From Cellulophaga sp. BC115SP (GTDB lineage: Bacteria; Bacteroidota; Bacteroidia; Cytophagales; Spirosomataceae), in NCBI RefSeq assembly GCF_009905545.1, contig NZ_JAAALB010000050.1:1-42445 (forward strand): 42,445 nucleotides of DNA, written 5' to 3'. Below the pieces are notes generated by a model. That model was not told where the DNA came from. It saw only the letters and a list, made by a program, of their open reading frames with translations, and made no database searches. Positions 16,023 through 29,849 of this stretch are shown here, piece after piece. A program made the translations under genes and the position numbers. Numbering within the stretch: the first letter of the stretch is position 1; every line of letters starts with the position of its first letter.

Positions 16023-17171
16023 TTAAAGTGCTAGTCTTATTCCCATAAACTGCCAACGGTGTTGTGGCTGAAAGAAATTTCGGTACGTATTTCTTGAATG
16101 TCCTTCTGGAGTTGCTACCGAACCACCTCTCAAAACCATTTGATTAACCATAAATTTACCGTTATACTCTCCGATAGCACCTGCTGCTTTCTGAAAGCCT
16201 GGATAAGGTAAATAGGCACTATTTGTCCATTCCCAACGTTGGCCCCACTGAAAATGTGCGGATGCTACTTCCCATTCTGCTTCGGTAGGTAGTCGCATTC
16301 CTTTCCAAGCTGCAAAAGCGGATGCTTCATAGAAGTTTACATGACAAACCGCTTGGTTAAGCCTGATTTCTTGTAAACCATCTAAGCTATACGTAAACCA
16401 TTTGTCATCAATTAAATACCAATATAAAGGAGCTTTCGCTTTATTTTTATTTACCCATTCCCAACCGTCAGCGTGCCAATATTGAAATTTTTCGTAGCCT
16501 CCATCTTTTATAAATTCAAGGTAGTCTGCATTGGTTACTAAACGCTGTTGTATTTTATACGATTGAAGATACACTTTGTGTCGATTTAGTTCATTATCAA
16601 AACAAAAATCATCCCCCTCAAATCCAATTTTGTAAACGCCTTCTGGAATCGACAAAAAGCTTTCATTCTCATTGATTTCTTGTTCTTCCAATCGAATATC
16701 AATCGAAGGAAAAAGGGGATTATGCCCCAGAATGTATTTAATGTCTGTTAAAAGTAATTCTTGATGTTGTTGCTCGTGGTTTAAGCCTAAAATAAAAAGG
16801 TCTTGTAATTCCTTCTCGATAGTTGTGCTGGCTAAAAAATCTACCATCGCAGCATCTACGTATTTTCGATAAACGTAAATATCTTCTACTGACGGGCGGC
16901 TTAAATTTCCTCTATCAGTACGGATTAATCTTGCTCCAACGGTTTCGTAATAACTGTTGAAAACAAAGTTGTAATTTGGGTCAAATACTCTATAGTTTGT
17001 ACAATTGGGCTGTAAAATAAAGGTTTCAAAAAACCAAGTAGTATGTCCTAAATGCCACTTGGGTGGGCTTACATCTACGATGGGTTGCACCACGTAATCT
17101 TCGGTTTTGAGTGATACACAAATATCAACTGAATGTTGTCTGACCGAAATGTATTGCTTGAGTAAATCCAT
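16023..17171 (-). CDS. egtB: EgtB-like iron-dependent sulfoxide synthase
   Basis: 382 residues. The N-terminal DinB-like domain carries the iron ligands: H43 in KWHLGHTTWFFETF and H132/H136 in LNHEQQHQELLL. The C-terminal domain is of the formylglycine-generating/sulfatase-modifying type (MRLPTEAEWEVA, RWEWTNSAY, VLRGGSVATPEGHSRNTYRNFF). EgtB joins a thiol donor to hergynine (trimethylhistidine) with oxygen. The adjacent EgtD makes hergynine, so the pair should run ergothioneine synthesis; no EgtA, EgtC or EgtE is visible here, so the donor may be free cysteine and the C-S lyase may lie elsewhere. Final gene of the operon, 18 bp after egtD. Confidence 0.88.
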   Translation of the reverse strand: MDLLKQYISVRQHSVDICVSLKTEDYVVQPIVDVSPPKWHLGHTTWFFETFILQPNCTNYRVFDPNYNFVFNSYYETVGARLIRTDRGNLSRPSVEDIYVYRKYVDAAMVDFLASTTIEKELQDLFILGLNHEQQHQELLLTDIKYILGHNPLFPSIDIRLEEQEINENESFLSIPEGVYKIGFEGDDFCFDNELNRHKVYLQSYKIQQRLVTNADYLEFIKDGGYEKFQYWHADGWEWVNKNKAKAPLYWYLIDDKWFTYSLDGLQEIRLNQAVCHVNFYEASAFAAWKGMRLPTEAEWEVASAHFQWGQRWEWTNSAYLPYPGFQKAAGAIGEYNGKFMVNQMVLRGGSVATPEGHSRNTYRNFFQPQHRWQFMGIRLAL

Positions 17172-17189
17172 GTTAAAATCTGTTTAGAA

Positions 17190-18182
17190 TTAGGCTACTT
17201 CCCAAATGGCATCTACAAAGTAGTTATGCGTATCAAAACAATTTAAAATAGGTTTAAACCCACTTTCAAATGCCATTTTTTCAATTTCAGTCAAAGCATA
17301 TTTTTGAGAAACCTCCATAAAAATACTTTCACTTTGGGTAAATGAAATGGTTTCTGAACCAATTGTTACTTCCTGCTTGCAAAGACTTACTAAGTAACTT
17401 TTGCAAGCACCCGTTTCGGGGTCATAAGTTTGATAATGCTCAAAATTAGCTATGTTAAAATTCCCTTTGAGTTCCTGATTGATTCGGACAAGTAGATTCA
17501 AATTAAATTGACTTGTAAAACCTTCGTTATCATTATAGGCTTTTAAAATGGTAGCAGGGTTTTTCTTTAAATCAAATCCAATTATAATTCTATCTCCTTT
17601 TGTAAGATTTTGGGAAAGCTTTCTACAGAAATTAAGGGATTCTTTGGGACTCATATTTCCAATGTTTGCCCCTAAAAACAGTATAACTTTACGGTTTGAT
17701 GACAGTTCACAAGCTTTTTGCAAGGCTTCAAAATAATCTCCTTGAATCGGGCATACCGATAAATTAGGCAATGAGGCAAAAAGATTATTTTCAAGAATAT
17801 CAAGAATATAGCCCGAAATGTCAATAGGTAAATACCGAAAATCTGTGTTTTGCTCTTTCAGGTATTTTAGTAGATGAAACGTTTTGGTAGCATCGCCAGC
17901 ACCCAATTCGATTAAATCAAAGGCAGATGCGTTGGCACGAATACCATCAGCTAATTGAGCAGATGAATTTTGAAAAATATCCATTTCGGCTCTCGTAAGA
18001 TAATAATCCTTGCAGTTCATTATCTTTTGAAACAAAATATCGCCATGCTCATTATAAAAGTATTTAGACGATAAATGCTTTTGTGGAGCTTTTAAACCAT
18101 TGACTACATCTTTATAAAACTGACTTGATGTTTCCTCTGAGTCCATCAAATCTATACTTTCTAATTCTTTTAACGTATCCAT
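17190..18182 (-). CDS. egtD: EgtD histidine N-alpha-methyltransferase
   Basis: 330 residues. SSKYFYNEHGDILFQKIMNCKDYYLTRAE is the family's N-terminal block, LIELGAGDATKTF (90-102) the SAM-binding motif I with GAGD at 94-97, LPIDISGYIL the second SAM block with D121, and LFLGANIGNMSP (169-179) contains the asparagine that contacts histidine. QSESIFMEVSQKY near the C-terminus is the usual substrate-side ExS block. It methylates histidine three times to hergynine. Tight spacing to egtB (18 bp) and to the MDR gene (6 bp) shows one transcript. Confidence 0.9.
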   Translation of the reverse strand: MDTLKELESIDLMDSEETSSQFYKDVVNGLKAPQKHLSSKYFYNEHGDILFQKIMNCKDYYLTRAEMDIFQNSSAQLADGIRANASAFDLIELGAGDATKTFHLLKYLKEQNTDFRYLPIDISGYILDILENNLFASLPNLSVCPIQGDYFEALQKACELSSNRKVILFLGANIGNMSPKESLNFCRKLSQNLTKGDRIIIGFDLKKNPATILKAYNDNEGFTSQFNLNLLVRINQELKGNFNIANFEHYQTYDPETGACKSYLVSLCKQEVTIGSETISFTQSESIFMEVSQKYALTEIEKMAFESGFKPILNCFDTHNYFVDAIWEVA

Positions 18183-18188
18183 TGATAG

Positions 18189-19166
18189 CTATTTATGTTC
18201 TGTAATCATTACAATTTTACCAGAAGCCTTATTACTCTCCATAAATTGATGGGCCACTACAATTTCAGTAAATGGAAAAACGGTATGATTGATCATTTGT
18301 AATGTATGATTCTCAATATCTAAAATAAATGCCTGAAAAGCATCTGAACTAACTCTAACTGCTCCGCTATCATAAGTCGTGAGTGAAACTGTCGGAGGAA
18401 TTACCTCCATTGGTGCAAAGTTTTGAAACGACCATTGTTCTGATAGCATTCCTGTCATACACGCAATTCCGCCTCGTTTTACACACAATAAAGTATCGGG
18501 TAAGGTATTGACTCCGACCAATTCGAGTGCTTTATCAACACCTTCAGGGATTATGTCTTTCATGGTTTCATGAATTAAACCATTATCAATCAAAACCTTA
18601 TTGGCTCCATTTGATAAAAGCGATTGCTCTTTATTCTTATCTCTTGTGGTGGAAATAACGCTTACACCAAACTTACTTGCCATTTGGGTCGCCAATAGTC
18701 CAATAGAAGATGAACCACCTCTAATTAAAAGCGATTCGCCTTTTTGTATTTTCAGTGCAAGGTGCAACGAACCGTAAACTGTTTGAAACATTTCGGGTAA
18801 AGCACCTAAAATTGACCACGAAAGTTTACTATCAAAGGGCATTAAAATACTTTTAGGAAATACGCCATATTCGGCATAACTACCATCAAAATCTCGTCCC
18901 ATACCTCCCATGAAAGCAGCTACTTTTTGCCCATTTTTTAGCTCTCCAGAAGGGTCTTCTATTACTTCACCAACACATTCAATGCCCAATATCCTTGGAA
19001 ATTTTACGTTTGGGGAGTAGCCTTTGCGGGTCATTAATTCCGAGCGATTGAGTCCAAAAGCTTTGATTTTGACCAGCACTTCACCATTTTGGGGGTTTGG
19101 CATAGGTCGTTCTTCGATAATTAAATTCTCAGAACTACCCGATTCATAGATAACGATAGCTTTCAT
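18189..19166 (-). CDS. Zinc-type MDR oxidoreductase, quinone-reductase-like
   Basis: 325 residues from the ATG at 19166 (MKAIVIYESG), the standard start of the family; a start eight codons upstream is possible. The N-terminal GroES-like fold (GEVLVKIKAFGLNRSELMTRKGY, LGIECVGEV) and the Rossmann motif IRGGSSSIGLLATQMASKFG mark an NAD(P)H-dependent medium-chain reductase. Cysteine zinc ligands of true alcohol dehydrogenases are missing, as in quinone oxidoreductases and related enone reductases. It is inside the egt operon, 6 bp from egtD; a redox role linked to that pathway is only a guess from context. Confidence 0.85.
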   Translation of the reverse strand: MKAIVIYESGSSENLIIEERPMPNPQNGEVLVKIKAFGLNRSELMTRKGYSPNVKFPRILGIECVGEVIEDPSGELKNGQKVAAFMGGMGRDFDGSYAEYGVFPKSILMPFDSKLSWSILGALPEMFQTVYGSLHLALKIQKGESLLIRGGSSSIGLLATQMASKFGVSVISTTRDKNKEQSLLSNGANKVLIDNGLIHETMKDIIPEGVDKALELVGVNTLPDTLLCVKRGGIACMTGMLSEQWSFQNFAPMEVIPPTVSLTTYDSGAVRVSSDAFQAFILDIENHTLQMINHTVFPFTEIVVAHQFMESNKASGKIVMITEHK

Positions 19167-19200
19167 GATACGTATTTTATCAATTACCAAATGGTGATAT

Positions 19201-20283
19201 TTACTTCATAAACAAGCCTGCACCCAGATTTGACCCTAAAGTACCTGCCTTGATATGTAAAAAGTATTTACTCGTTTGATCTTCAATTACTTCCAATCTT
19301 CCTTTTTTCTTCAAAATGACATTTTTACCCAGTTTGAGTTTGTCGTCAGATGCTTTTTCACCAAATCCTTGTGGCCCACCGCCTTTATTTACAAAAGAAT
19401 TATAGCCCACAATAACAGAGTTTTCAATAGAAAAAGAGTCTTTTTCATCTTTATTCAACATCCATAATACATTGGCATTACTGATTACATTGTTGTAAAA
19501 CTTGAAATCAGGCGTAGCCGACCAAGTCCAAACAATACCGCCATAGCTATCAATGACTAAATTATGGTGCATAGATGAATTGGTAGCAGGGCTATTCCAT
19601 AATACAAGGGCATCTTTCACTCCGTAAAATACACAGTGGTCAATTTCTTGTTCTTTTCCATTTGCCAAAATCCCCAAATGGTTAGGTAAAGCGTATTTGT
19701 TGCCCAAGAATAAACATTGCGTAACTCTGAAATCTTCTAAATTTTTCCCTTCCCACATAATAGGATAGTTTCTAACCAAAACCCCTTTCGATGGATTTTC
19801 GTGGACAGGCTCTCCCAGAATTCGTAATCCTTGAATGGTGACATGGCTATTTTGAATCATGATACCAAAATTCTGACCGCCAGTAAGTTCACCTTTGTCG
19901 TTTTTCTCTACAGAAAAAGGCATTGTTGAAATCATAATTGGCATTTCTGCTGGAGTCCAATTAGCATCATCAGGTAAGACTTCAGCACGAATCGTTAAGC
20001 GATTAGTTTTTGTAAACTTCCATTTTTTAGGGTTAAAATCTGCCGTTTCGCTCATACCATAAACACCTGCTGCAAGAAAAACGCTTATTGCCCCTTCACC
20101 TTCGGCAGTGTTCACTCGTTTAGCGGCTTCGCTCAATGATTTTAAAGGGTTTTCTTTTGTACCCTTGTTGGAATCACTCCCTATATTGGGATTTATAAAA
20201 ATTTTATTTTCAATCACTTGCCCAAAGCTTTGAAGGCTAAGTATTGTAAATAATGCTACTAAGTAAACTATACTTTTTCTCAT
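19201..20283 (-). CDS. Secreted right-handed beta-helix protein
   Basis: 360 residues with a signal peptide (MRKSIVYLVALFTILSLQSFGQ, likely cleaved after GQ). The mature part begins IFINPNIGSDSNKGTKENPLKSLSEAA, the usual opening of pectate-lyase-like beta-helix proteins, and the centre has repeated short strands with HHN/CVF steps (VTIQGLRILG, IDHCVFYGV, SSMHHNLVID, FKFYNNVIS). Such proteins bind or cleave polysaccharides; no catalytic set can be assigned here. It is third in the six-gene operon, 20 bp after the LamG-like gene. Its link with ergothioneine genes is unexplained. Confidence 0.8.
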   Translation of the reverse strand: MRKSIVYLVALFTILSLQSFGQVIENKIFINPNIGSDSNKGTKENPLKSLSEAAKRVNTAEGEGAISVFLAAGVYGMSETADFNPKKWKFTKTNRLTIRAEVLPDDANWTPAEMPIMISTMPFSVEKNDKGELTGGQNFGIMIQNSHVTIQGLRILGEPVHENPSKGVLVRNYPIMWEGKNLEDFRVTQCLFLGNKYALPNHLGILANGKEQEIDHCVFYGVKDALVLWNSPATNSSMHHNLVIDSYGGIVWTWSATPDFKFYNNVISNANVLWMLNKDEKDSFSIENSVIVGYNSFVNKGGGPQGFGEKASDDKLKLGKNVILKKKGRLEVIEDQTSKYFLHIKAGTLGSNLGAGLFMK

Positions 20284-20303
20284 CTTGATTTTTTTAAAAC
20301 TAG

Positions 20304-21047
20304 TTAAATATCACCTACTTTTCCTTCTTCTTTCTTCTCTTTCAAAGCTCTCTTAGTTACTTTCAAATCTTTGAAATAACCCGTTGTGGCAATATCTACA
20401 TATAGCCCAACATAGCCTTTTTTGTTTTTACCCAACATCTTATTGACTATAAATGAGGAGTATTTCATGTTGTTGATGAACATTTCGGCTGTTTCTCCAT
20501 TGATTTCCAATCGCATTGTAATCCACTCATTCAACATCACAGGAGCTGAACCCTCGTACGAACCTGCTGGAAATTTGTCTCTCAACGTTTGAAATTTGAA
20601 GTCGGGATAAGAAAAATACTGTACCGCATGGTTTCTTGCCATTTGATTGTTTATTCTACCTACCTTTGGACGTAAATAAATAGACTCCCAAGCCGAATCA
20701 TCTGCCGCAATTCTGTAATACAAGCCAATAAAACCTGCCGCTGGTGCGTAAGGCGATGGGTTTTGAATCTGGCTATACATTTTTACTTCTATTGTGCCAT
20801 TTTCAAAATCATCAATATCTACAAGTCGAGCGTAATGACGGTCGTCAACCGTGGTTTCTAATTTCTTCTCATCGAATGGAAGAGCTTTTAAATCACGTTC
20901 TATTTTGAGAACCTTATCGCCTTGAAATTTGATAATTTCTCCAGTTACATTGTGTAATTCAAACGTCTGTTTACCAAATTTCAAGTTTTGCCCAAAACTC
21001 TTGAGTGATAGCAGACAGATTACAGGAAGTATAAGAAGTTTTTTCAT
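20304..21047 (-). CDS. Secreted LamG/concanavalin-like protein, copy 1
   Basis: 247 residues with a signal peptide (MKKLLILPVICLLSLKSFGQ). The mature region is a beta-sandwich with DIDDFENGTIEVKMYSQ, GFIGLYYRIAADDS, IYLRP, RNHAVQYFSYPDFKF and GYVGLYVDIATTGYFKDLKV, typical of concanavalin A-like/DUF1080-type domains. A paralogue is encoded at 28094-28759 with the same order of motifs. No catalytic residues are recognised; a sugar- or surface-binding role is inferred. It is the second gene of the operon. Confidence 0.75.
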   Translation of the reverse strand: MKKLLILPVICLLSLKSFGQNLKFGKQTFELHNVTGEIIKFQGDKVLKIERDLKALPFDEKKLETTVDDRHYARLVDIDDFENGTIEVKMYSQIQNPSPYAPAAGFIGLYYRIAADDSAWESIYLRPKVGRINNQMARNHAVQYFSYPDFKFQTLRDKFPAGSYEGSAPVMLNEWITMRLEINGETAEMFINNMKYSSFIVNKMLGKNKKGYVGLYVDIATTGYFKDLKVTKRALKEKKEEGKVGDI

Positions 21048-21087
21048 TTTATGTTATTGAAACGTTTTTAGATATTATGAGTATCAA

Positions 21088-21480
21088 TTAATTGGAAGAA
21101 ATACCTTTTTGATGAAGAATCTCAAGTGTGTTATCATAGCCTTCAATAATTTGGTTATTGGCTAAATGGTAGGTGTTGGTGACGTACATTTGGTTTGATT
21201 TATTATCCATTAATACGTTATTGTCCATGGCATTTATCAAAAACCTTAGGAAATACTTATCCTTCACGATAGTAATATCGTCTATTTCCCAGCGTACATT
21301 ATGGAAATGATTTTGTATTCCTTCGATGATTTTTAAATACCCAATTGGCCCTTCAAATACCTCAATGCTATTAGAAATATAGAATTGAGCATTCGGACTA
21401 ATTAGCTGTTGAGCTAAATTTTCGTCAGCTGTATTTAATAATTGGACGAATTGTTTGAAGAATAAAGCGTACCCTTTCAT
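21088..21480 (-). CDS. SnoaL/NTF2-like protein, first gene of the egt operon
   Basis: 130 residues, cytoplasmic. The pattern FVQLLNTADENLAQQLISPNAQFYISNSIEVFEGPIGYLKIIEGI with later strands WEIDDITIVKDKYFLRFLI and TYHLANNQIIEGYD is that of SnoaL-like NTF2 folds, which include ester cyclases and many small-molecule-binding proteins of unknown role. It directly follows the dyad-controlled promoter, with GGAG just before the ATG and a very short leader. Confidence 0.75.
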   Translation of the reverse strand: MKGYALFFKQFVQLLNTADENLAQQLISPNAQFYISNSIEVFEGPIGYLKIIEGIQNHFHNVRWEIDDITIVKDKYFLRFLINAMDNNVLMDNKSNQMYVTNTYHLANNQIIEGYDNTLEILHQKGISSN

Positions 21481-21493
21481 ACTCCTTTTTTTT

Positions 21494-21541
21494 ATGCAAA
21501 ATTAGAGGAGTATAAAGGGATTTATCGTTCACCTATATTAA
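21494..21541 (-). promoter_or_regulatory. Promoter of the six-gene egt operon with Fnr-like dyad
   Basis: On the minus strand, TAATTTTG (21497-21504, perfect TAnnTTTG) followed by CAT. The dyad TTAAT-ATAG-GTGAA (21528-21541) is centred 37.5 bp upstream of the last G of the box. The string ATAGGTGAACGA-N20-TAATTTTGCAT here recurs as ATAGGTGAACGA-N20-CAACTTTGCAT before the gene at 25171. The geometry fits an activator bound near -42 to -44. Confidence 0.7.
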
Positions 21542-21587
21542 GAAAAACAATGAATGTAGATTCATCTTTTTAGTTAATATAGATTAA
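21528..21587. promoter_or_regulatory. Array of three 14-bp dyads at 23-bp spacing
   Basis: Dyads at 21528-21541 (TTCAC-CTAT-ATTAA), 21551-21564 (TGAAT-GTAG-ATTCA) and 21574-21587 (TTAAT-ATAG-ATTAA). Centres are 21534.5, 21557.5 and 21580.5, exactly 23 bp apart. The 5-4-5 layout is that of Crp/Fnr-family sites. The last one overlaps the stop codon of the adjacent Crp/Fnr gene. Confidence 0.7.
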
Positions 21588-22162
21588 GATTTAGTGGAGA
21601 TTTTTTTACGAATTTTACTCAAAAATTGAGGAGTGATACCCAAATATGAAGCTATTTGAACATTTGAGATACGTGCTGCTAAGTCAGCATAGCGGTCTAG
21701 GAAACTAAGGTAGCGTTGTTCGGCAGTAGAGCTGAAGTTTTGTAAAACTCGATCTTGGATTTCAATAAATTTATTTTCGACAGTAACCTTGAAAACCCTA
21801 TCTAGTTTTATAATATTGATGTACAAAAAGTATAAATCTTTTTGCTCTATTTGAATAATTTCTGAAGGTTCAAGGGCTTCAATAAATAATTTACTGGGCT
21901 TTTTCGTATGAAAACTACCAAGGTCTGCAATCCAATCTCCTTCCGCTGTAAATTGAATATTATGCTCGAAACCTTTGTCATCAATACCATACATCCTAAA
22001 TAGACCTTTTAAAACAAAAGTATAGTGCTTGCAAACAAATCCTTCTTGCAATATCATTTGACGACGTTTGATTTTTCGCACACTAATTTTTGACTCAATT
22101 AAATTTAATTGAGAGGCATCAAGGGATATATATTTATTGAAATGAGCTATAAGTGCTTCCAT
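21584..22162 (-). CDS. Crp/Fnr-family transcriptional regulator 1
   Basis: 192 residues. The N-terminal cyclic-nucleotide-binding fold is visible (GFVCKHYTFVLKGLFRMYGIDDKGFEHNIQFTAEGDWIADLGSF) but has no cysteine cluster for an iron-sulphur site. The C-terminal helix-turn-helix reads RISNVQIASYLGITPQFLSKIRKK, the form usual in Bacteroidota Crp-like proteins. The ligand is unknown. It is divergent from the ABC transporter genes and sits directly upstream of the operator array of the egt operon, so it is the prime candidate regulator. Its paralogue at 24480-25064 shares the EGxWIxDLxSF and ASYLGIxPQxLSxIR blocks. Confidence 0.9.
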   Translation of the reverse strand: MEALIAHFNKYISLDASQLNLIESKISVRKIKRRQMILQEGFVCKHYTFVLKGLFRMYGIDDKGFEHNIQFTAEGDWIADLGSFHTKKPSKLFIEALEPSEIIQIEQKDLYFLYINIIKLDRVFKVTVENKFIEIQDRVLQNFSSTAEQRYLSFLDRYADLAARISNVQIASYLGITPQFLSKIRKKISTKS

Positions 22163-22184
22163 TGCATGGGTATAATTAGTGCTT

Positions 22185-22206
22185 CAAATTTATAAAACTA
22201 TTTTCA
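22185..22206 (-). promoter_or_regulatory. -7 box of Crp/Fnr gene 1 with weak adjacent dyad
   Basis: Minus-strand TAAATTTG (22185-22192) 23 bp before the start codon. Directly upstream is TGAAA-ATAG-TTTTA (22193-22206), a weaker relative of the dyads at 21528-21587, in a position suited to autorepression. Confidence 0.4.
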
Positions 22207-22212
22207 GCAATT

Positions 22213-22932
22213 ATGCAAAAAAATAAGAATGTAGTCGAACTTATAGATATTACACTGTCTTTCCAAGATAGAAAGGTGCTTGTTGATTTGTCTGTAAATT
22301 TTCAAAGTGGAAAGGTAACTGCTTTATTTGGAAAGAGTGGTAGTGGAAAATCAACCATCTTACAGCTAATCAATGGAATGATTATTCCTGAATATGGCAA
22401 AGTGAAGGTTTTTGATGATTGCTTTGATTATCAACAGGCTAATATACTGCGTCTTCAAATTGGTTATGTTGTTCAGCATGTGGGACTATTCCCTCACTTA
22501 ACGATTGAAAAAAATATTAGTTTACTAGGAAAAATATCCAAACAGTCTATCAAATCAATGAATGAACGTACCCGTTTTTTGATGGATACAGTTGGACTAT
22601 CGCAAGATTATTTAAACAAATACCCCCATCAACTTTCTGGAGGAGAACAGCAAAGAGTTGGACTTTGCAGAGCTCTATTTCTCAAGCCTCCTTTATTGTT
22701 GATGGATGAACCCTTCGCTTCGCTCGATTATTCAACACGGACAGGAATTTATAACTATTTTAAAATACTTCAAGAAACAGAGCCATGTTCGGTAATTATT
22801 GTTACCCATCAATTTGATGAAGCTGAAACATTGGCAGATAATTTTGTTTGGCTCGAAAATGGGAAAATAAAGTCTCAGGGTAATAAATCAGATTTTCCTT
22901 CCATTAAAACAGATTATTTAGCCGCATTATGA
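22213..22932 (+). CDS. ABC transporter ATPase, OpuC/ProV/EgtU-A type
   Basis: 239 residues. Walker A GKSGSGKST, Q-loop IGYVVQHVGLFPHLT, signature LSGGEQQRVGLCRAL, Walker B LLLMDEPFASLD and the switch histidine VTHQFDEAE are all intact. It lacks the C-terminal CBS domains of OpuCA/ProV, as is common in small systems of this class. It energises import of quaternary-amine compounds with the two downstream gene products. Its stop overlaps the next start as ATGA. Divergent from a Crp/Fnr regulator and from the egt operon, which makes a betaine-like substrate such as ergothioneine or hergynine worth considering. Confidence 0.88.
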   Translation: MQKNKNVVELIDITLSFQDRKVLVDLSVNFQSGKVTALFGKSGSGKSTILQLINGMIIPEYGKVKVFDDCFDYQQANILRLQIGYVVQHVGLFPHLTIEKNISLLGKISKQSIKSMNERTRFLMDTVGLSQDYLNKYPHQLSGGEQQRVGLCRALFLKPPLLLMDEPFASLDYSTRTGIYNYFKILQETEPCSVIIVTHQFDEAETLADNFVWLENGKIKSQGNKSDFPSIKTDYLAAL

Positions 22933-23636
22933 GAATTAAAATTATCATTATTTTACTCTGTATTATACAGCCAGCTTTTGCCCAAAAGGTTATAAAAGTG
23001 GGAGCAAAACACTTTAATGAAGGTTATATTTTGAGCGAAATGATTTCTTTACTACTGGAGGATAACGGTTTTAAGGTAGAGAGGAAATTTAACTTAGGAG
23101 GCACAAATGTATGCTTTGAAGCATTAAAAAATGGTGAAATCGATATATATCCTGAATATTCTGGGACAATTTCAGCAGAAATTTTAAAAGAGAGTTCTAC
23201 CTTAAACCTTCATAAAATCAAGCGTTTATTAACTTCAAATTATGGTTTAGAAATCTCAGAACCTTTGGGGTTTAACAATACTTATGCCTTATTAATAAAG
23301 CCAGAAATCGCACAAAAATATCAGCTTAAAAACATTAGTGATTTAAGAAAATATCCTAATCTAAAGGGGGGATTTAGCTATGAATTTCTCAGACGAGAGG
23401 ATGGTTGGGGAAAACTCGCTGCATTTTATCATTTAAAACAAAATCCAGTAGGGCTTGAACATGGTTTGGCATACAAAGCAATCAACAATAATCAAATAGA
23501 TTTTACGGATGCTTATTCAACAGACGGAGAAATTATACAAGAAAAATTAATGCTATTGAACGATGATTTACGTTTTTTCCCATCCTATCAAGCAGTAGCT
23601 TTTTATGCTCCCAAAACAGAAGATGCTGTTAAATAA
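22929..23636 (+). CDS. Osmoprotectant/ergothioneine-type substrate-binding protein, truncated by a stop
   Basis: 235 residues with a signal peptide (MRIKIIIILLCIIQPAFAQ). VGAKHFNEGYILSEMISLLLE, FNLGGTNVCFEALKNGEIDIYPEYSGT and DFTDAYSTDGEI are hallmarks of the OpuAC/ProX-like family (PF04069). The frame ends at a TAA (23634-23636), but translation past it continues in the same frame (SVQKLCGVINETEMQALNAQ, then EIARHFL) exactly as the last 40 residues of these domains, and runs into the permease. The ancestral gene was therefore a binding protein-permease fusion. The domain as encoded lacks its final helices unless the stop is read through. Confidence 0.85.
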   Translation: MRIKIIIILLCIIQPAFAQKVIKVGAKHFNEGYILSEMISLLLEDNGFKVERKFNLGGTNVCFEALKNGEIDIYPEYSGTISAEILKESSTLNLHKIKRLLTSNYGLEISEPLGFNNTYALLIKPEIAQKYQLKNISDLRKYPNLKGGFSYEFLRREDGWGKLAAFYHLKQNPVGLEHGLAYKAINNNQIDFTDAYSTDGEIIQEKLMLLNDDLRFFPSYQAVAFYAPKTEDAVK

Positions 23637-23675
23637 TCCGTTCAAAAACTATGTGGAGTAATCAATGAAACGGAA

Positions 23676-24410
23676 ATGCAGGCATTAAACGCCCAAGTGT
23701 TATTTGAAAAAAAGAGTTTTAAAGAAATAGCACGTCATTTCTTGACAAGAAAGAACTTGTTGAAACATGCCAGTAACGAAGACGAAAATAAGTGGCATGA
23801 AATAGTAGAACATAGTTTTGTTCATCTCCAACTTACCTTTTTTTCGCTATTGTTAGCCATTTTAGTCGCAATACCATTAGGTGTTTTTTTGTATAGATTC
23901 CAGTCGTTGTTAAAGCCAACTTTATATTTGATAGGTATCATGCAAACAATACCATCTATTGCTCTACTTGCTTTAATGCTGCCGTTTTTCGGTATTGGTA
24001 TAGTACCAGCCATTGTAGCATTAATCATTTATGCTATTTTACCCATACTTCGAAATACCATTGTTGGTCTTTACTCTGTTGACCCCCAATTAAAGAAAGT
24101 CGCCACAGCAATTGGATTGAACGATTACAAGCGATTAGTCTTAATAGAATTACCGCTGGCAATTCCGATGATTATTACAGGTATTCGGACGGCGGCAGTA
24201 ATTAATGTAGGCACAGCAACATTAGCCGCATTTATTGGAGCAGGTGGACTGGGTGAATTTATCGTCACAGGTTTGGCACTAAACAATACAAATTTAATTT
24301 TACAAGGGGCTATTCCATCTGCCATTCTAGCAATTTTCCTTGAATTGTGTTTTGAACTTATCGAGCGGTTTTTAGTTTCGGAGCATTTAAGACAAAAAAT
24401 TGTCAGATAA
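23676..24410 (+). CDS. ABC transporter permease, OpuCB/ProW type, split from the binding protein
   Basis: 244 residues from the ATG at 23676, in the same frame as the preceding gene and 13 codons after its stop. The first 35 residues (MQALNAQVLFEKKSFKEIARHFLTRK) are the tail of the binding-protein domain, not permease. About five or six membrane segments follow, with the EAA-type loop VGLYSVDPQLKKVATAIGLNDYKRLVLIELPLAIPMIITG and GAGGLGEFI. No ribosome binding site is obvious before 23676, so expression may depend on re-initiation or read-through. If both halves are made, the membrane part is complete. Confidence 0.85.
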   Translation: MQALNAQVLFEKKSFKEIARHFLTRKNLLKHASNEDENKWHEIVEHSFVHLQLTFFSLLLAILVAIPLGVFLYRFQSLLKPTLYLIGIMQTIPSIALLALMLPFFGIGIVPAIVALIIYAILPILRNTIVGLYSVDPQLKKVATAIGLNDYKRLVLIELPLAIPMIITGIRTAAVINVGTATLAAFIGAGGLGEFIVTGLALNNTNLILQGAIPSAILAIFLELCFELIERFLVSEHLRQKIVR

Positions 24411-24479
24411 ATCATTCCATAATTCAACATTTAACCACAAGAAGTTTAAACAAACGATGTTAAGAAAAGTACTACAACG

Positions 24480-25064
24480 ATGAAAAGTACCATAAAAGAG
24501 AATATAGAAGAGAAGTTGAAGCAAGAATTGACCATTGAGGAGTATGAAAAATTCACTTTGCTTTTAGAGCCATTGACCATTCAAAAAAAACAACAACTTG
24601 TAACTGAAGATAGAGTATGTAAATACCTCTATTTTGTGGAAGAAGGAGTCCTGCATTCATTTTTGACTGACGATAATGGAGAAAACCATACAATACAGTT
24701 TGGCTTTGAAGGACATTGGATTTCAGATTTATACAGTTTTGTTAGTAACACTACTGCTACTTTTAATATTGAAGCATTAGAAGAAACAACTATACTGGCG
24801 ATATCGAAAAGTAATTTTGAAAAAGCACTTAATGATATTCCTAAATTTGAACGTTTCTTTAGAATATTAATACAAAACGCTTATATTCAATCACAACATC
24901 GTATTGCTAAAAATTATAGTGATGATGCTGAGCACCGTTATTTAGCCCTTATTAAACAACAACCTGACCTTCTGCAACGTGTTCCACAATATTTAGTAGC
25001 TTCTTATTTGGGGATTAAACCGCAATCGTTGAGTCGTATTCGACAAAATTTATCCAAAAAATAA
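24480..25064 (+). CDS. Crp/Fnr-family transcriptional regulator 2
   Basis: 194 residues. CKYLYFVEEGVLHSFLTDDNGENHTIQFGFEGHWISDLYSF is the effector domain and VASYLGIKPQSLSRIRQN the recognition helix region. It is clearly paralogous to regulator 1 (shared VCK, HTIQF/HNIQF, EGxWIxDLxSF, ASYLGIxPQxLSxIR). A dyad TTCAC-ATAG-GTGAA begins 15 bp after its stop codon and belongs to the promoter of the next gene. Both regulators may bind the same 14-bp sites. Confidence 0.9.
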   Translation: MKSTIKENIEEKLKQELTIEEYEKFTLLLEPLTIQKKQQLVTEDRVCKYLYFVEEGVLHSFLTDDNGENHTIQFGFEGHWISDLYSFVSNTTATFNIEALEETTILAISKSNFEKALNDIPKFERFFRILIQNAYIQSQHRIAKNYSDDAEHRYLALIKQQPDLLQRVPQYLVASYLGIKPQSLSRIRQNLSKK

Positions 25065-25078
25065 ACTCAATTACTTTA

Positions 25079-25126
25079 TTCACATAGGTGAACGAAAGCC
25101 AATCGTTGTAAGCCCCAACTTTGCAT
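25079..25126 (+). promoter_or_regulatory. Dyad-controlled promoter of the SnoaL-like gene
   Basis: TTCAC-ATAG-GTGAA (25079-25092), a perfect 5-4-5 dyad, then CAACTTTG (25116-25123), one base off TAnnTTTG. The dyad centre to final G distance is 37.5 bp, identical to that at the egt promoter, and ATAGGTGAACGA, N20 and TTTGCAT are shared with it. Confidence 0.7.
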
Positions 25127-25170
25127 CATCAATCAATAAGGATTGCATCAGTCTTTAAACAGTTAGAAAA

Positions 25171-25743
25171 ATGCAAAAGTTATCAATTATCGCAACAACA
25201 GTTTTATTAACATTTTCATTCATCACAATTTTTGCTCAAAGTAAACAAAATAGTCAAGCAGAAATAACAGCATTAAGAAATCAACTAAATGAAATAACGA
25301 AAGCAAATAGTGAAGTACAAAAGCATTTAGCCACGTTTGAAACTTTGGATTATCAAGTTTTTAGTAATCAAGAATGGAACAGATTACACGAAAGCCATTC
25401 AAAAAACATTAAAGTATATTGGCCAGACGGGCATATAACAGAAGGTATAGAAATTCATATAGAAGACCTAAAAAAACTTTTTGTATATGCTCCAGACACT
25501 CGTATAAAGGTTCATCCAATCAAATTTGGCTCAGGAAAATTTACAGCTGTGACAGGGGTTTTTGAAGGAACATTTACCAAACCGATGCCAATTGGTAATG
25601 GTAAGTTCATACAACCTACTGGTAAATCATTTAAAATGCCTATGGCTACAGTTGGTATTTGGGGTGAAGATGGAACAATGATCGAAGAACATCTTTTTTG
25701 GGATAACCAAACCTACGCCAACCAAATAGGTTTAGGGAATTAG
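25171..25743 (+). CDS. Secreted SnoaL-like ester-cyclase-family protein
   Basis: 190 residues with a signal peptide (cleavage likely after TIFAQ), a short coiled-coil-like stretch (AEITALRNQLNEITKANSEVQ) and a SnoaL-like domain: NIKVYWPDGHITEGIEIHIEDLKKLFVYAPDTRIKVHPIKFGSGKFTAVTGVFEGTF, with conserved WPDG, HP and EEHLFWDNQTY at the end. The WDN/FWDNQ ending is common in ester cyclases of this superfamily. The substrate is unknown. It has its own promoter and is followed by a hairpin terminator. Confidence 0.8.
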   Translation: MQKLSIIATTVLLTFSFITIFAQSKQNSQAEITALRNQLNEITKANSEVQKHLATFETLDYQVFSNQEWNRLHESHSKNIKVYWPDGHITEGIEIHIEDLKKLFVYAPDTRIKVHPIKFGSGKFTAVTGVFEGTFTKPMPIGNGKFIQPTGKSFKMPMATVGIWGEDGTMIEEHLFWDNQTYANQIGLGN

Positions 25744-25752
25744 GGTCGTTGA

Positions 25753-25777
25753 CTGAGGTATTGCTATAATACCTCAG
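25753..25777 (+). terminator. Intrinsic terminator
   Basis: Perfect 10-bp stem CTGAGGTATT / AATACCTCAG with a 5-nt loop, then CTTTCCTTTTC, 10 bp after the stop codon at 25741-25743. Confidence 0.8.
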
Positions 25778-25804
25778 CTTTCCTTTTCATTATTAAAATT
25801 GACT

Positions 25805-25820
25805 TTTACACTCCTGTAAA
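25805..25820. promoter_or_regulatory. Dyad just upstream of the dioxygenase gene
   Basis: TTTACA-CTCC-TGTAAA, 6-bp arms with 4-bp centre, 7 bp before the ATG at 25828. It has the spacing of Crp/Fnr-type sites but a different centre from the rTAG dyads; the position so close to the start would suit repression. Confidence 0.3.
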
Positions 25821-25827
25821 CAGTAAA

Positions 25828-26706
25828 ATGGAACGCAAATATTTTTTGAAGACGATGGCTACTTTGCCTTTAATCTCTCATGATATGACCCTCAATGCTC
25901 TCAAGAACATTACGGATGGCTTTTTTAATACTAAAAAAATGCCTGTTTTGTTTATCGGACATGGTCATCCAATGAATGCGTTGTTTGATAATAATTTTAC
26001 CCAAAAATTATTGTCAATTGGAAAACAAATAGAAAAACCCAATGCTATTATGGTTATTTCAGCACACTGGGAAACTCGTGGCACTTTTGTTTCTGTAAAT
26101 AATCAGCCCAAAACAATTTATGATTTTGGAGGATTCGACAAACGCTTATTTGATATAAAATATGAACCCAAAGGGCATCCAGCGTTAGCCCAAGAAGTGA
26201 TAGAATTAGCTAAAGATTTTTATGTAAAAGGGGATCATTCAATGGGGCTAGACCACGGTGCGTGGACTATTCTAAAATATTTATTTCCTAAAGTAGATGT
26301 ACCAGTTTTTCAATTGAGTATTGATTATACACAACCTGCTGAATATCATTTTCAGTTAGCCAATAAGCTGAAAAAATTAAGAGAAAAAGGTGTATTGATT
26401 ATTGGTAGTGGGAATATCGTTCATAATTTGAGCATACTAGATTGGAGAAATATAGATGCGAAACCACAAGAATGGGCAGTAGAATTTGATGAATTAGTAA
26501 AATCGAGGCTAAATAAACAAGATTTCTCGTCGCTTATTAAATATGAGCAGTTTGGGAAATTAGCCCAAATGGCAATTCCTACGAACGACCATTATTTGCC
26601 CATGATCTATACGTTAGGTTTAGTAGAGAAGAGAGAAACAGTAAAGTATCTTTTTGAAGGCATACAGTATGGAACTATTAGTATGCGTTGTTATGAGATT
26701 TCTTAA
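25828..26706 (+). CDS. LigB-family 4,5-DOPA-extradiol-dioxygenase-like protein
   Basis: 292 residues. MPVLFIGHGHPMNAL (38-52), VISAHWETRG, HSMGLDHGAWTILKYLFP and IGSGNIVHNL are the metal-site and active-site blocks of the YgiD/DODA family (class III extradiol dioxygenases, with a divalent metal held by histidines). An N-terminal extension of 37 residues precedes the family's usual start at M38; it is not a clear signal peptide. Family members open the ring of DOPA-like catechols in plants, whereas the bacterial function is mostly unproven. Confidence 0.88.
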   Translation: MERKYFLKTMATLPLISHDMTLNALKNITDGFFNTKKMPVLFIGHGHPMNALFDNNFTQKLLSIGKQIEKPNAIMVISAHWETRGTFVSVNNQPKTIYDFGGFDKRLFDIKYEPKGHPALAQEVIELAKDFYVKGDHSMGLDHGAWTILKYLFPKVDVPVFQLSIDYTQPAEYHFQLANKLKKLREKGVLIIGSGNIVHNLSILDWRNIDAKPQEWAVEFDELVKSRLNKQDFSSLIKYEQFGKLAQMAIPTNDHYLPMIYTLGLVEKRETVKYLFEGIQYGTISMRCYEIS

Positions 26707-26717
26707 TAATTGTACAA

Positions 26718-27437
26718 GTGAAAAAAAATATAGTTTCTTTAATTTTCTTAATCATGATGACATCAAACTCACAGAGTGGATATGCTAAAGGTGATACAAC
26801 TCTATTATATTATGTAGCTCGCCCTCCGAAAGTTCAAAATCAAAAGCCTTCATTATTAATTCTTTTACATGGCGTTGGGAGTAATGAGCAAGATTTATTT
26901 CGCATTGCTAACAGCTTACCAGATAATTTTTTAGTGATTAGTGCTAGAGCTCCATTTACTATTTCAGAAGGAAGATATAAATGGTATGATGTTGATTTTT
27001 CTTCGGGTAGTCCACGATTTAATGCAGAACAAGCTGAAAAAAGTAGATTAGTTATCTTAAGTTTTATCAATGAGCTTAAAGAAAAACACTCATTTAATGA
27101 AAATGAGATTTATTTAGGTGGTTTTAGCCAAGGAGCAATCATGTCTTTTAGTGTAGGGCTTACTCGACCAGACAAAGTAAAAGGAGTTATTGCCCTGAGC
27201 GGGAGAGTATTAAGTGACATCAAACCCAAGATTGCAGAGCAAAATAAATTGAACGGCCTGAAAGTCTTAGTAATTCATGGCACCAAAGATGAAGTATTAA
27301 GCATTAATTACGCCCGACAATGCAAGCATTTATTAGATAGCCTGCATATTCAGAATACCTATTTTGAACTAAACATGGGTCATACTATTACAAGCGAGGT
27401 CACTGATCTAATAAGTAAATGGCTTAAAGCTGAATAA
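26718..27437 (+). CDS. Phospholipase/carboxylesterase-family hydrolase
   Basis: 239 residues starting with GTG at 26718, 11 bp after the dioxygenase stop. A signal-like N-terminus (MKKNIVSLIFLIMMTSNSQSGYA) precedes an alpha/beta hydrolase of the PF02230 group: LILLHGVGSNEQDLF (oxyanion region), nucleophile S137 in GGFSQGA, an aspartate in IHGTKDEVLS and the histidine in MGHTITSEV. Probably an exported or periplasmic esterase of short acyl groups; co-transcribed with the dioxygenase. Confidence 0.85.
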   Translation: MKKNIVSLIFLIMMTSNSQSGYAKGDTTLLYYVARPPKVQNQKPSLLILLHGVGSNEQDLFRIANSLPDNFLVISARAPFTISEGRYKWYDVDFSSGSPRFNAEQAEKSRLVILSFINELKEKHSFNENEIYLGGFSQGAIMSFSVGLTRPDKVKGVIALSGRVLSDIKPKIAEQNKLNGLKVLVIHGTKDEVLSINYARQCKHLLDSLHIQNTYFELNMGHTITSEVTDLISKWLKAE

Positions 27438-27495
27438 GTTTTAGCTTTCATTGTAAATATAATGAACTGTTTTTTATATAAACTAACGCCATTTC

Positions 27496-27539
27496 TTAAT
27501 GTAGATTAAGTGTAGCTTTTTTACATATATCTAATTTTG
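27496..27539 (+). promoter_or_regulatory. Dyad-controlled promoter of the second SnoaL-like gene
   Basis: TTAAT-GTAG-ATTAA (27496-27509) with TAATTTTG (27532-27539) downstream; the dyad centre to final G distance is 36.5 bp, within 1 bp of the other two promoters of this type. Confidence 0.65.
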
Positions 27540-27586: not shown

Positions 27587-27937
27587 ATGCAAGATTCAAC
27601 AACAAACGACGTTTTGATGCACCACCTTACTGCTTTTGGCAATAATGATTTAGCCGAAATTATGCTTGATTATACAGAAGAGTCAGAAGTACTTACAGCA
27701 ACAGGAGCTATCAAAGGGTTGAGTGCTATTACTGCATTTTTTTCAGATTTATTTATCACAATCCCTACAGGTTCAGATTTTGAAATGAAGCAATTAACCG
27801 TTACCGAAAACGTAGCTCATATCATCTGGGCAAGTGAATCGGAAGTTGCTGCTATTCCGTTTGGCACTGATACATTTGTGATGGAAAATGGAAAAATTAA
27901 ATTCCATACCGTATCTGCCGATATAAAATATAAATAA
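27587..27937 (+). CDS. SnoaL/NTF2-like cytoplasmic protein
   Basis: 116 residues, no signal peptide. HHLTAFGNNDLAEIMLDYTEESEVLTATGAIKGLSAITAFFSDLF is the typical helix-strand opening of SnoaL-like folds, followed by strands with VAHIIWASESE and DTFVMENGKIKFHT. Function unknown. It is single, with its own dyad-bearing promoter, so it probably belongs to the same regulon as the genes at 21088 and 25171. Confidence 0.78.
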   Translation: MQDSTTNDVLMHHLTAFGNNDLAEIMLDYTEESEVLTATGAIKGLSAITAFFSDLFITIPTGSDFEMKQLTVTENVAHIIWASESEVAAIPFGTDTFVMENGKIKFHTVSADIKYK

Positions 27938-28825: not shown

Positions 28826-29485
28826 TTATCTTTCTCCCTCAATTTCCTTTTGAATCATAGTACGAGCATCTTCGGCAGCAATTGGTCTTACTACCCTTTT
28901 CGTAACCTTCCAACCGTCTGTTGTTCGCACGAGGGTATATTTATTGATGGTAAGCTGATAAATTGAAAAACCAGGAGAAACGCCTTTTCCTGCAAGCTTT
29001 ACATGAGAGGCGGCAGAATCGGGCATGACAATGAGTAAGTACCCTGTGGCAACCGCACTATCGCCCTTGAGTTTGATATGTGGAAGCATCGCCAAATGAG
29101 TCATTCCTGCTTTTATCGCCACTTTTTGTTCGGGAGCGTTTATAATTTTTAGGACTTCTTCTCGCCCTTTATCTTGCTTTACACCTCTGTCGAAAGTAGC
29201 ATCTTCTGTAAACATTTTTGTCCAATACGATTCGGAAGCAACATCAGAGCTAAACGCAGAACCTGCCAAAAGATTTAAGATTTCGAGTCTATCTTCTGTG
29301 GCTCTTAGGCGAGCAAGAAGTTGTTCGGTCTTCGATGCTCTTTTATCGGTATCGTGAGCTATGTTGTTTCTTTTGGCTATTGCTGAGTTTTTAGTTTCAA
29401 TCTTCTGAGCGAAAAGCAGATTTGACATCAATAAGAAGCATACTTGAAGTACAAATTGCTTAGTAAAATTAATTAAGCTTTTCAT
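28826..29485 (-). CDS. Secreted SnoaL-like protein
   Basis: 219 residues from the ATG at 29485 (MKSLINFTKQFVLQVCFLLMSNLLFAQ, a good signal peptide); a start nine codons upstream would spoil it. The mature part has a polar stretch, then TEDRLEILNLLAGSAFSSDVASESYWTKMFTEDATFDRGVKQDKGREEVLKIIN, the opening of an SnoaL_4-type NTF2 fold, with strands MTHLAMLPHIKLKGDSAVATGYLLIV and YTLVRTTDGWKVTKRVVRP. Function unknown. A TTTCA-ATAG-ATTAA sequence (29486-29499) abuts its start codon. Confidence 0.78.
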   Translation of the reverse strand: MKSLINFTKQFVLQVCFLLMSNLLFAQKIETKNSAIAKRNNIAHDTDKRASKTEQLLARLRATEDRLEILNLLAGSAFSSDVASESYWTKMFTEDATFDRGVKQDKGREEVLKIINAPEQKVAIKAGMTHLAMLPHIKLKGDSAVATGYLLIVMPDSAASHVKLAGKGVSPGFSIYQLTINKYTLVRTTDGWKVTKRVVRPIAAEDARTMIQKEIEGER

Positions 29486-29531
29486 TTTCAATAGATTAAA
29501 GTTATTTTGCAAAACATTAAATACTTCAACA

Positions 29532-29849
29532 TTATACTTGATAATCTTCTCTTACGGGACAAAATATATCAAATATTTTACATTTTGTAAGTGCTTTTCC
29601 TCCATGTATAACATGGGGAGCAATCACCGCTATTTGTCCGTTCTCATATACTTTTGTTTGCTCACCCACGGTCAATTCAAACTTTCCTTCTAAAACCTGC
29701 GTGACTTGTTCATGGAAATGTTGGTGCATGGGCAAAATTGCTCCTTCTTCAACATCCCAATAACCCAAAGTCATATTTTCTGTATGAATAAACCTTGCCT
29801 TAAATCCCTTTATGATTTCTTTTTGAGGTAGTGAATCTATATCAATCAT
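29532..29849 (-). CDS. Cupin-domain protein
   Basis: 105 residues, a single cupin. Motif 1 is HQHFHEQVTQVLEGKFEL, with two histidines and a glutamate for metal binding; motif 2 is GQIAVIAPHVIHGGKAL. It overlaps the end of the small membrane-protein gene by 8 bp and so belongs to the minus-strand catabolic operon. Small cupins of this form can be isomerases, dioxygenases or ligand-binding proteins; the reaction is unknown. Confidence 0.85.
   Translation of the reverse strand: MIDIDSLPQKEIIKGFKARFIHTENMTLGYWDVEEGAILPMHQHFHEQVTQVLEGKFELTVGEQTKVYENGQIAVIAPHVIHGGKALTKCKIFDIFCPVREDYQV

Follow-up and report, generated by a model that had tools for sequence, protein, structure and literature searches.

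In Escherichia coli, the Crp/Fnr proteins FNR and CRP act as class II activators from a dyad near -41.5; FNR carries an N-terminal cysteine-ligated cluster, and in CRP cAMP is bound by the Arg-Ser pair of the RSA motif. The quinone-stress regulons of Bacillus are governed by MhqR, YodB and CatR, which are MarR/DUF24-type repressors. According to the parts consulted of two papers, the dehalobox of CprK/RdhK in Desulfitobacterium (Firmicutes) has the form TTAAT-N4-ATTAA and is centred at -41.5 (PMC7062800, PMC2610375), and CprK, with Val192 at the position of FNR Glu209, reads A instead of G, showing that the residue at this position bears on the half-site base (PMC2610375). Here we describe a 42,445-nt stretch of Cellulophaga sp. 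BC115SP (NZ_JAAALB010000050.1; the window, whose positions are used throughout), in which two Crp/Fnr-type regulators, Crp1 and Crp2, and three promoters, P1, P2 and P3, accompany ergothioneine (egt) and SnoaL-like genes. It is probable that P1 and P3 are tandem-dyad promoters activated by Crp1-type regulators, and P2 a single-dyad promoter activated by a Crp2-type regulator, all of them serving a stress gene set. Crp/Fnr class II control is of a known kind; the conserved tandem operator and the phylum-wide, SnoaL-rich regulon are the new part. Full-text literature searches for such an operator or regulon, covering mostly papers outside subscription, gave no title or abstract opening that describes it.

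Distances are counted from the dyad centre to the last G of the -7 box. P1, on the minus strand directly behind the Crp1 gene, has the box TAATTTTG at 21504-21497 and three dyads in a 23-bp register: the proximal TTAATATAGGTGAA (21528-21541) at 37.5 bp, the middle TGAATCTACATTCA (21551-21564) at 60.5 bp and the distal TTAATCTATATTAA (21574-21587) at 83.5 bp. P2, on the plus strand directly behind the Crp2 gene, has a single dyad, TTCACATAGGTGAA (25079-25092), 37.5 bp from the box CAACTTTG (25116-25123). In P3, also on the plus strand, the proximal dyad TTAATGTAGATTAA (27496-27509) lies 36.5 bp from the box TAATTTTG (27532-27539), and a degenerate distal dyad, TTTATATAAACTAA (27473-27486; 4/7 pairs), 59.5 bp from the box, is followed by the linker CGCCATTTC. 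The coordinates bear out the spacings of 37.5, 37.5 and 36.5 bp that a first-pass annotation had given for the boxes ending at 21497, 25123 and 27539, and the string ATAGGTGAACGA-N20-(T/C)AAnTTTGCAT, which it had described as common to the first two promoters, is matched exactly in both. The Bacteroidota sigma-A box TAnnTTTG is exact in P1 and P3, and takes the form CAnnTTTG in P2. Taking into account that, in the consulted part of a study on F. psychrophilum, the -7 box lies at -12 to -5 (PMC9723704), the proximal centres would fall at about -42.5 in P1 and P2 and about -41.5 in P3, a class II position.

Judged by the consulted parts of PMC7062800 and PMC2610375, the CprK promoter appears to be the nearest precedent for this position. 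The regulators share the Crp/Fnr fold, the proximal dyad of P3 reads TTAAT-GTAG-ATTAA at about -41.5, and both this dyad and the distal one of P1 fit TTAAT-N4-ATTAA. Unlike CprK, which has Val at the FNR-209 position, Crp1 and Crp2 have Q at the aligned residue, and the Crp1 family mostly E (position 179 over 59 distinct rows, counting window Crp1: E 57, Q 1, V 1). A tandem 23-bp operator is not mentioned for CprK in the text consulted of these two papers, and Pfam, scanned with 20 open reading frames (ORFs) of the window, gave no dehalogenase family. With respect to FNR, Crp2-like relatives with PETLSR helices carry FNR-type TTGA-N6-TCAA dyads, whereas P1-P3 lack TTGAT-N4-ATCAA, the third base of each half-site being A or C; Crp1 has one cysteine, and hence lacks the FNR N-terminal cluster. 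The TGTGA-N6-TCACA operator of cAMP-CRP is absent from P1-P3, and the Crp1 segment GDWIADLGSFHTKKPS is without an RSA motif. The MhqR/YodB/CatR regulons would resemble the genes of this locus and those behind the operators elsewhere in their types (extradiol dioxygenase, hydrolase, quinone-oxidoreductase-like and FMN-reductase), although their regulators are MarR/DUF24-type repressors and those found here are Crp/Fnr proteins.

In 200 dinucleotide shuffles of the window, TTnAN6TnAA dyads at 36.5/37.5 bp from a YAnnTTTG box were rarer than observed: at 4/7 pairs or more, 3 against a mean of 0.295 (maximum 3); at 5 or more, 2 against 0.105 (maximum 2); and at 6 or more, 2 against 0.045 (maximum 1), all of them figures that flatter, the motif and spacing having been picked post hoc with the sites already known. 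The comparative evidence is therefore decisive. Crp1 homologues were sought in 200 genomes, an even draw from its family (family and class searches were all even draws), and the DNA behind the 29 best, window excluded, was read. Two dyads with centres 23 bp apart and at least 17 of 20 consensus bases stand behind 20 of the 29, and an nAnnTTTG box follows the nearer dyad, at 37.5 bp in 17 cases and at 36.5 bp in 3. At four further loci (L020, L021, L035, L039) a single dyad, the nearer one, is distinct, L031 has a weaker pair (15/20 consensus bases), and at L024 the pair stands 0.8 kb farther away. The consensus operator consists of two cTTAAnnTAnnTTAAg dyads, 23 bp apart, with centres 60.5 and 37.5 bp before the box, and P1 (SnoaL1-egt operon) and P3 (SnoaL3) are versions of it, tied to Crp1-type regulators. 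The outermost dyad of P1 overlaps the Crp1 stop codon, the same placement as that of the distal dyad in Emticicia aquatica, so that the middle unit, extra by 23 bp relative to that species, looks like an insertion. In E. aquatica itself (L011, L041, L148), the SnoaL1 homologue, which has the homologous tandem operator in front, contains two stops, while the promoter is intact.

Beyond this family, the operator extends across Bacteroidota. A pattern made of the distal dyad, the linker and the beginning of the proximal dyad, with no promoter element, was run against 84,980 species genomes of the GTDB collection and matched 81 stretches, 80 of them in records with Bacteroidota names; the remaining one (L121, titled Nitrosopumilus) is part of a repeat and seems fortuitous. 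The 81 operator sequences comprise 80 distinct ones, or 69 once those with 6 differences or fewer are dropped. An nAnnTTTG box stands at 36.5/37.5 bp from the proximal centre in 75 of the 81, the expectation for 80 being about 0.3, and the other spacings examined gave just 3 boxes in the first 80 sites (counts for 80 loci exclude L170, the 81st). A Crp1-like gene lies within 400 bp upstream in 59 of the 81. A role as Crp gene terminator was rejected, since the AT-rich dyads precede -7 boxes and 16 of the 80 loci, the probably fortuitous L121 among them, have no Crp1-like gene within the stretch of the locus that was covered.

A sequence-only model, R1, was made from 73 promoters picked by pattern or consensus score, none from the window, although including the E. 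aquatica counterpart of P1. Its E-values are rough. In the window it ranks P3 first (E 7.5e-5) and P1 second (E 3.1e-4); in the 7.1-Mb genome, where 150 of 5034 candidates were scored, P3 is second (E 0.013) and P1 third (E 0.071). The first genomic rank goes to L171 (E 0.009), some 190 bp upstream of what is, by eye, a symporter-like gene; the fifth goes to a promoter on contig C111 that follows another Crp-like gene. P2 hardly scored (4.8 bits, E 1.1). The distal dyad is TTAA-N6-TTAA in 73/73 model sequences, which is partly a selection effect because of the way they were picked, and covariation inside the dyads is weak. Two "weaker relatives" that had been annotated at 22193-22206 and 29486-29499 were not upheld, as they have 5/7 and 3/7 pairs, no box by eye at 36.5/37.5 bp on either strand, no R1 match at E up to 10, and only low partial matrix scores (4.3 and -25.0).

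From this anatomy, conservation, geometry and gene content we infer binding, activation, the regulator acting at each site and the stress signal. It is proposed that P1 and P3 would be sigma-A promoters that depend on an activator from a Bacteroidota Crp/Fnr subfamily, that of Crp1. A Crp1 dimer would sit on the cTTAAnnTAnnTTAAg dyad centred at about -42, covering the -33 region and making a class II contact with RNA polymerase, and a second dimer would occupy the dyad exactly 23 bp upstream, at about -65, where it might make a class I-type contact or aid the binding of the proximal dimer. P1 would have gained a third unit in the 23-bp register, the distal unit of P3 would have decayed, and P2 would be the single-dyad counterpart under the sister regulator Crp2. 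Together they would turn on a limited number of genes, of the SnoaL-like, oxidoreductase, hydrolase, dioxygenase and ergothioneine kinds. Activator dependence fits the weakness of the core elements, because among the 73 model promoters TTTG is found at -33 in none, TTG in 20, and the -7 octamer starts with T in only 13. Taking into account that the proximal dyad overlaps the place of a -33 element, the dyads might instead be repressor operators, with Crp1 and Crp2 covering the -33 region and releasing the promoters under stress. This is quite improbable: a repressor would not need exact phasing, whereas the spacing to the -7 box is nearly constant, and the weak -33 and -7 elements, as well as a class II position like that of the CprK promoter (in the consulted part of PMC7062800), fit activation better.

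P2 has relatives of its own. All four Crp2 homologues with the helix (K/Q)PQSLSR (L047, L230, L231 and L232, the last with a stop inside its Crp gene) have a TTAAC-N4-GT(G/T)AA dyad 36.5 bp from a box, those of L047, L231 and L232 preceding a YceI-like gene, by eye; with P2 included, the single-dyad consensus becomes TT(A/C)AC-N4-GT(G/T)AA. P2 belongs to a second class, related to the tandem one, whose associated regulators are of the Crp2 type and differ in their recognition helix. The first-pass proposal of a class II Crp/Fnr-type design before the egt operon and SnoaL genes stands as regards dyad position, but its single shared design gives way to two related operator classes. The ATAGGTGAACGA-N20-YAAnTTTGCAT string of P1 and P2, each of which lies between a Crp gene and a SnoaL gene, could also reflect local duplication of one promoter, the P3 dyad then being due to chance. 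This is very improbable, as the two belong to separate lineages, P1 being matched by the E. aquatica tandem operator and P2 by L047 and L230-L232, which largely refutes duplication, and P3 is the best window match of the external model R1.

P1 shares its proximal half-site, GTGAACGA, with P2 and with the Crp2-type site in L230. Taken with Q179 of Crp1, this GTGAA half-site points to overlapping DNA specificities of Crp1 and Crp2 in this genome. The shared half-site and the Q common to both proteins could even mean that one regulator, Crp1 or Crp2, controls all three promoters; such an arrangement is unlikely, given that P3 and two P1 dyads are TTAA or TGAA sites and that P2 is of the Crp2 class, with the poor R1 score mentioned above. 

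Recognition helices and half-sites were tallied, uncorrected for kinship, over loci picked by protein similarity and filtered at 6/7 pairs or more, a later set also admitting 4-5 pairs with a box. E-x-(L/I)-S-R helices go with TTGA (12/12, several from close relatives), QSLSR helices with TT(A/C)A (5/5) and Crp1-class EFLSK helices with TTAA (14/14), as do EYLSE (L079) and QTLSV (L087); L233, with the helix PETLSR, carries the dyad TTGACATTTGTCAA. Two loci were left out, their sites lying inside the neighbouring gene (L018) or inside their own gene (L082); the other loci of the 74, including L084 (PQSLSR), had no passing dyad, and L046 and L077 are the same gene. L071 and L072 have EFLSK helices with TTGA, with TTGAACTAGTTCAA dyads upstream, and they contradict a strict helix code, which was rejected in favour of one that holds only mostly. 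Even so, PETLSR-TTGA, PQSLSR-TT(A/C)AC and PEFLSK with mostly TTAA offer natural pairs for a DNA-recognition code.

Short Crp/Fnr proteins abound in Bacteroidota, and a readable operator of fixed geometry gives testable regulons for one subfamily throughout the phylum, tying it to SnoaL-like, oxidoreductase and sometimes ergothioneine genes. First genes were tallied at 64 of the 80 loci (16 had no complete ORF by the rule used; Pfam families overlap, and the tallies are not additive): F420_oxidored 24, zinc-type dehydrogenase/quinone oxidoreductase 8, SnoaL_2 8 and NmrA 5. The 72 later genes of the same runs include SnoaL_2 in 22 and DUF4440 in 17, and FMN-reductase genes also occur among the operator-linked genes. 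As a control, 72 ORFs were drawn from 392 of the same loci, of which two very long ones were omitted; SnoaL families are not among the 25 families listed, of 99, for the remaining 70. The earlier prediction that the regulon includes SnoaL-like genes is borne out by these counts; that it is small seems right for this genome, but the operator itself is spread over Bacteroidota.

Homologues of the window cluster genes (at least 40% identity) lie downstream of the operator in 30 of the 80 loci, those of the quinone oxidoreductase (QOR) in 19 and elsewhere in 1, downstream DNA accounting for 281,379 of the 636,884 bases. A SnoaL1 search of 200 genomes gave five homologues, all with the operator in front, four of them (L042-L045) outside R1 training and the fifth from E. 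aquatica. SnoaL3 homologues (56-64% identity) are downstream of the tandem operator in 5 of the 80 loci, and none is elsewhere in those loci. The SnoaL2-LigB-hydrolase series stands in the same order behind the tandem operator in two Mucilaginibacter (L116, L146), and at L224 a SnoaL2 homologue follows a TTAATCTAGGTTAA dyad at 36.5 bp. QOR-EgtD-EgtV-EgtU follows the operator in two genomes of the Runella group (L124, the same site as L199; L102, the same as L196), and an operator lies within 1.5 kb at 5 of 29 loci with EgtD. The most likely role, suggested by gene content (QOR-like, 4,5-DOPA-extradiol-dioxygenase, weakly MhqD-like hydrolase, NmrA and ergothioneine genes), would be defence against quinone or other electrophile stress and oxidative stress.

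Several observations weigh against this reading. Among the dyads nearest the box in the three promoters, that of P1 is the weakest and poorly symmetrical (4/7 pairs). In the DNA read behind three of the 29 Crp1 homologues (L018, L033, L037) no operator was seen, and the homologue and scan sets overlap, with 9 of the 20 sites of the former recurring in the 81 of the latter. L171, the best site in this genome, may be there by chance, as may others at similar E-values. Among the 10 homologues selected by protein similarity to SnoaL2, a dyad of this kind stands immediately in front of the gene at L224 alone (the others are L006-L009 and L225-L229, with little upstream DNA for L008 and L227), and 24 of the 29 EgtD loci have no operator within 1.5 kb; at L198, L200 and L208 it lies beside or behind an egt gene and would drive a neighbour. 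The egt link, seen in this genome and the two related Runella genomes, and thus in two lineages, is not general. Window Crp1 departs from its homologues at E179Q, E being found in 29/29 (L011-L039; 60-83% identity), and it has a single cysteine.

As regards Crp1 itself, the TPEFLS(K) helix is conserved across the family, an Arg four residues past the FNR-209-equivalent position is present in only 3 of 59 rows (FNR alignment by eye), and C44 and C54 are conserved in 58/59 and 57/59 distinct rows, respectively. A disulphide switch formed by this pair was rejected, Leu being at 54 in window Crp1 and in E. aquatica, and sensing of cAMP or through an FeS cluster found no support. A bolder scheme, which is possible but rather doubtful, would see here a thiol-bearing Crp/Fnr subfamily acting as two adjoining dimers (at about -42 and -65) on a phylum-wide Bacteroidota defence regulon against quinones or other electrophiles, with ergothioneine captured here and in Runella, and with Crp1 and its own operators having drifted together (E179Q; TTAA to TGAA/GTGAA) towards Crp2 specificity, so that two regulons would be merging.

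Crp1 (21584..22162, minus strand, 192 aa, helix TPQFLSKIR with Q179) and Crp2 (24480..25064, plus strand, 194 aa, helix KPQSLSRIR) are 39% identical over 161 residues. Both match PF00027 above cut-off and neither has a Pfam Crp helix-turn-helix match; Crp1 matches PDB 3dn7 over residues 3-188 (E 6.8e-31). At E up to 1e-5, Crp1 has 15 matches in this genome, itself and Crp2 among them. The putative P1 operon (16023..21480, minus strand) comprises SnoaL1 (21088-21480), a 3-keto-disaccharide-hydrolase-like gene (20304-21047) and a beta-helix gene (19201-20283), all three with matches below curated cut-offs, a quinone-oxidoreductase-like gene (18189-19190), EgtD (17190-18182; PF10017 above cut-off, EgtD equivalog score below the curated one) and EgtB (16023-17171; above curated cut-off); as the gaps are of 6-40 bp, a single transcript from SnoaL1 to EgtB is plausible. 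The putative P2 operon (25171..27437, plus strand) contains SnoaL2 (25171-25743), a LigB/4,5-DOPA-extradiol-dioxygenase (25828-26706) and an alpha/beta hydrolase (26718-27437), weakly MhqD-like with a match far below cut-off. Behind P3 lies SnoaL3 (27587..27937, plus strand, 116 aa; PF12680 at 25.8 bits against a cut-off of 27). The adjoining SnoaL4 and cupin genes (28826-29849, minus strand) have no operator-model match in front.

Other Crp-like genes are seen in related settings. At C111 23407-23456 (L087, L175), a Crp-like gene with the helix TQQTLSVIRS precedes TTAATATAGATTAA, which stands 36.5 bp ahead of CAACTTTG; a 133-aa gene and, by eye, an RND-type efflux adaptor-like gene come next. 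In other genera, L007 and L009 have a Crp-like gene and TTGATC-type dyads before a reductase-like gene at the SnoaL2-LigB cluster; these were rejected as the same operator, their FNR-like dyads at 60.5/59.5 bp forming a third variant. Finally, divergent from Crp1 and adjoining the egt genes, an EgtU/betaine-type transporter with OpuAC-like substrate-binding and permease parts in one frame (22929-24410) is split by an in-frame TAA at 23634-23636.

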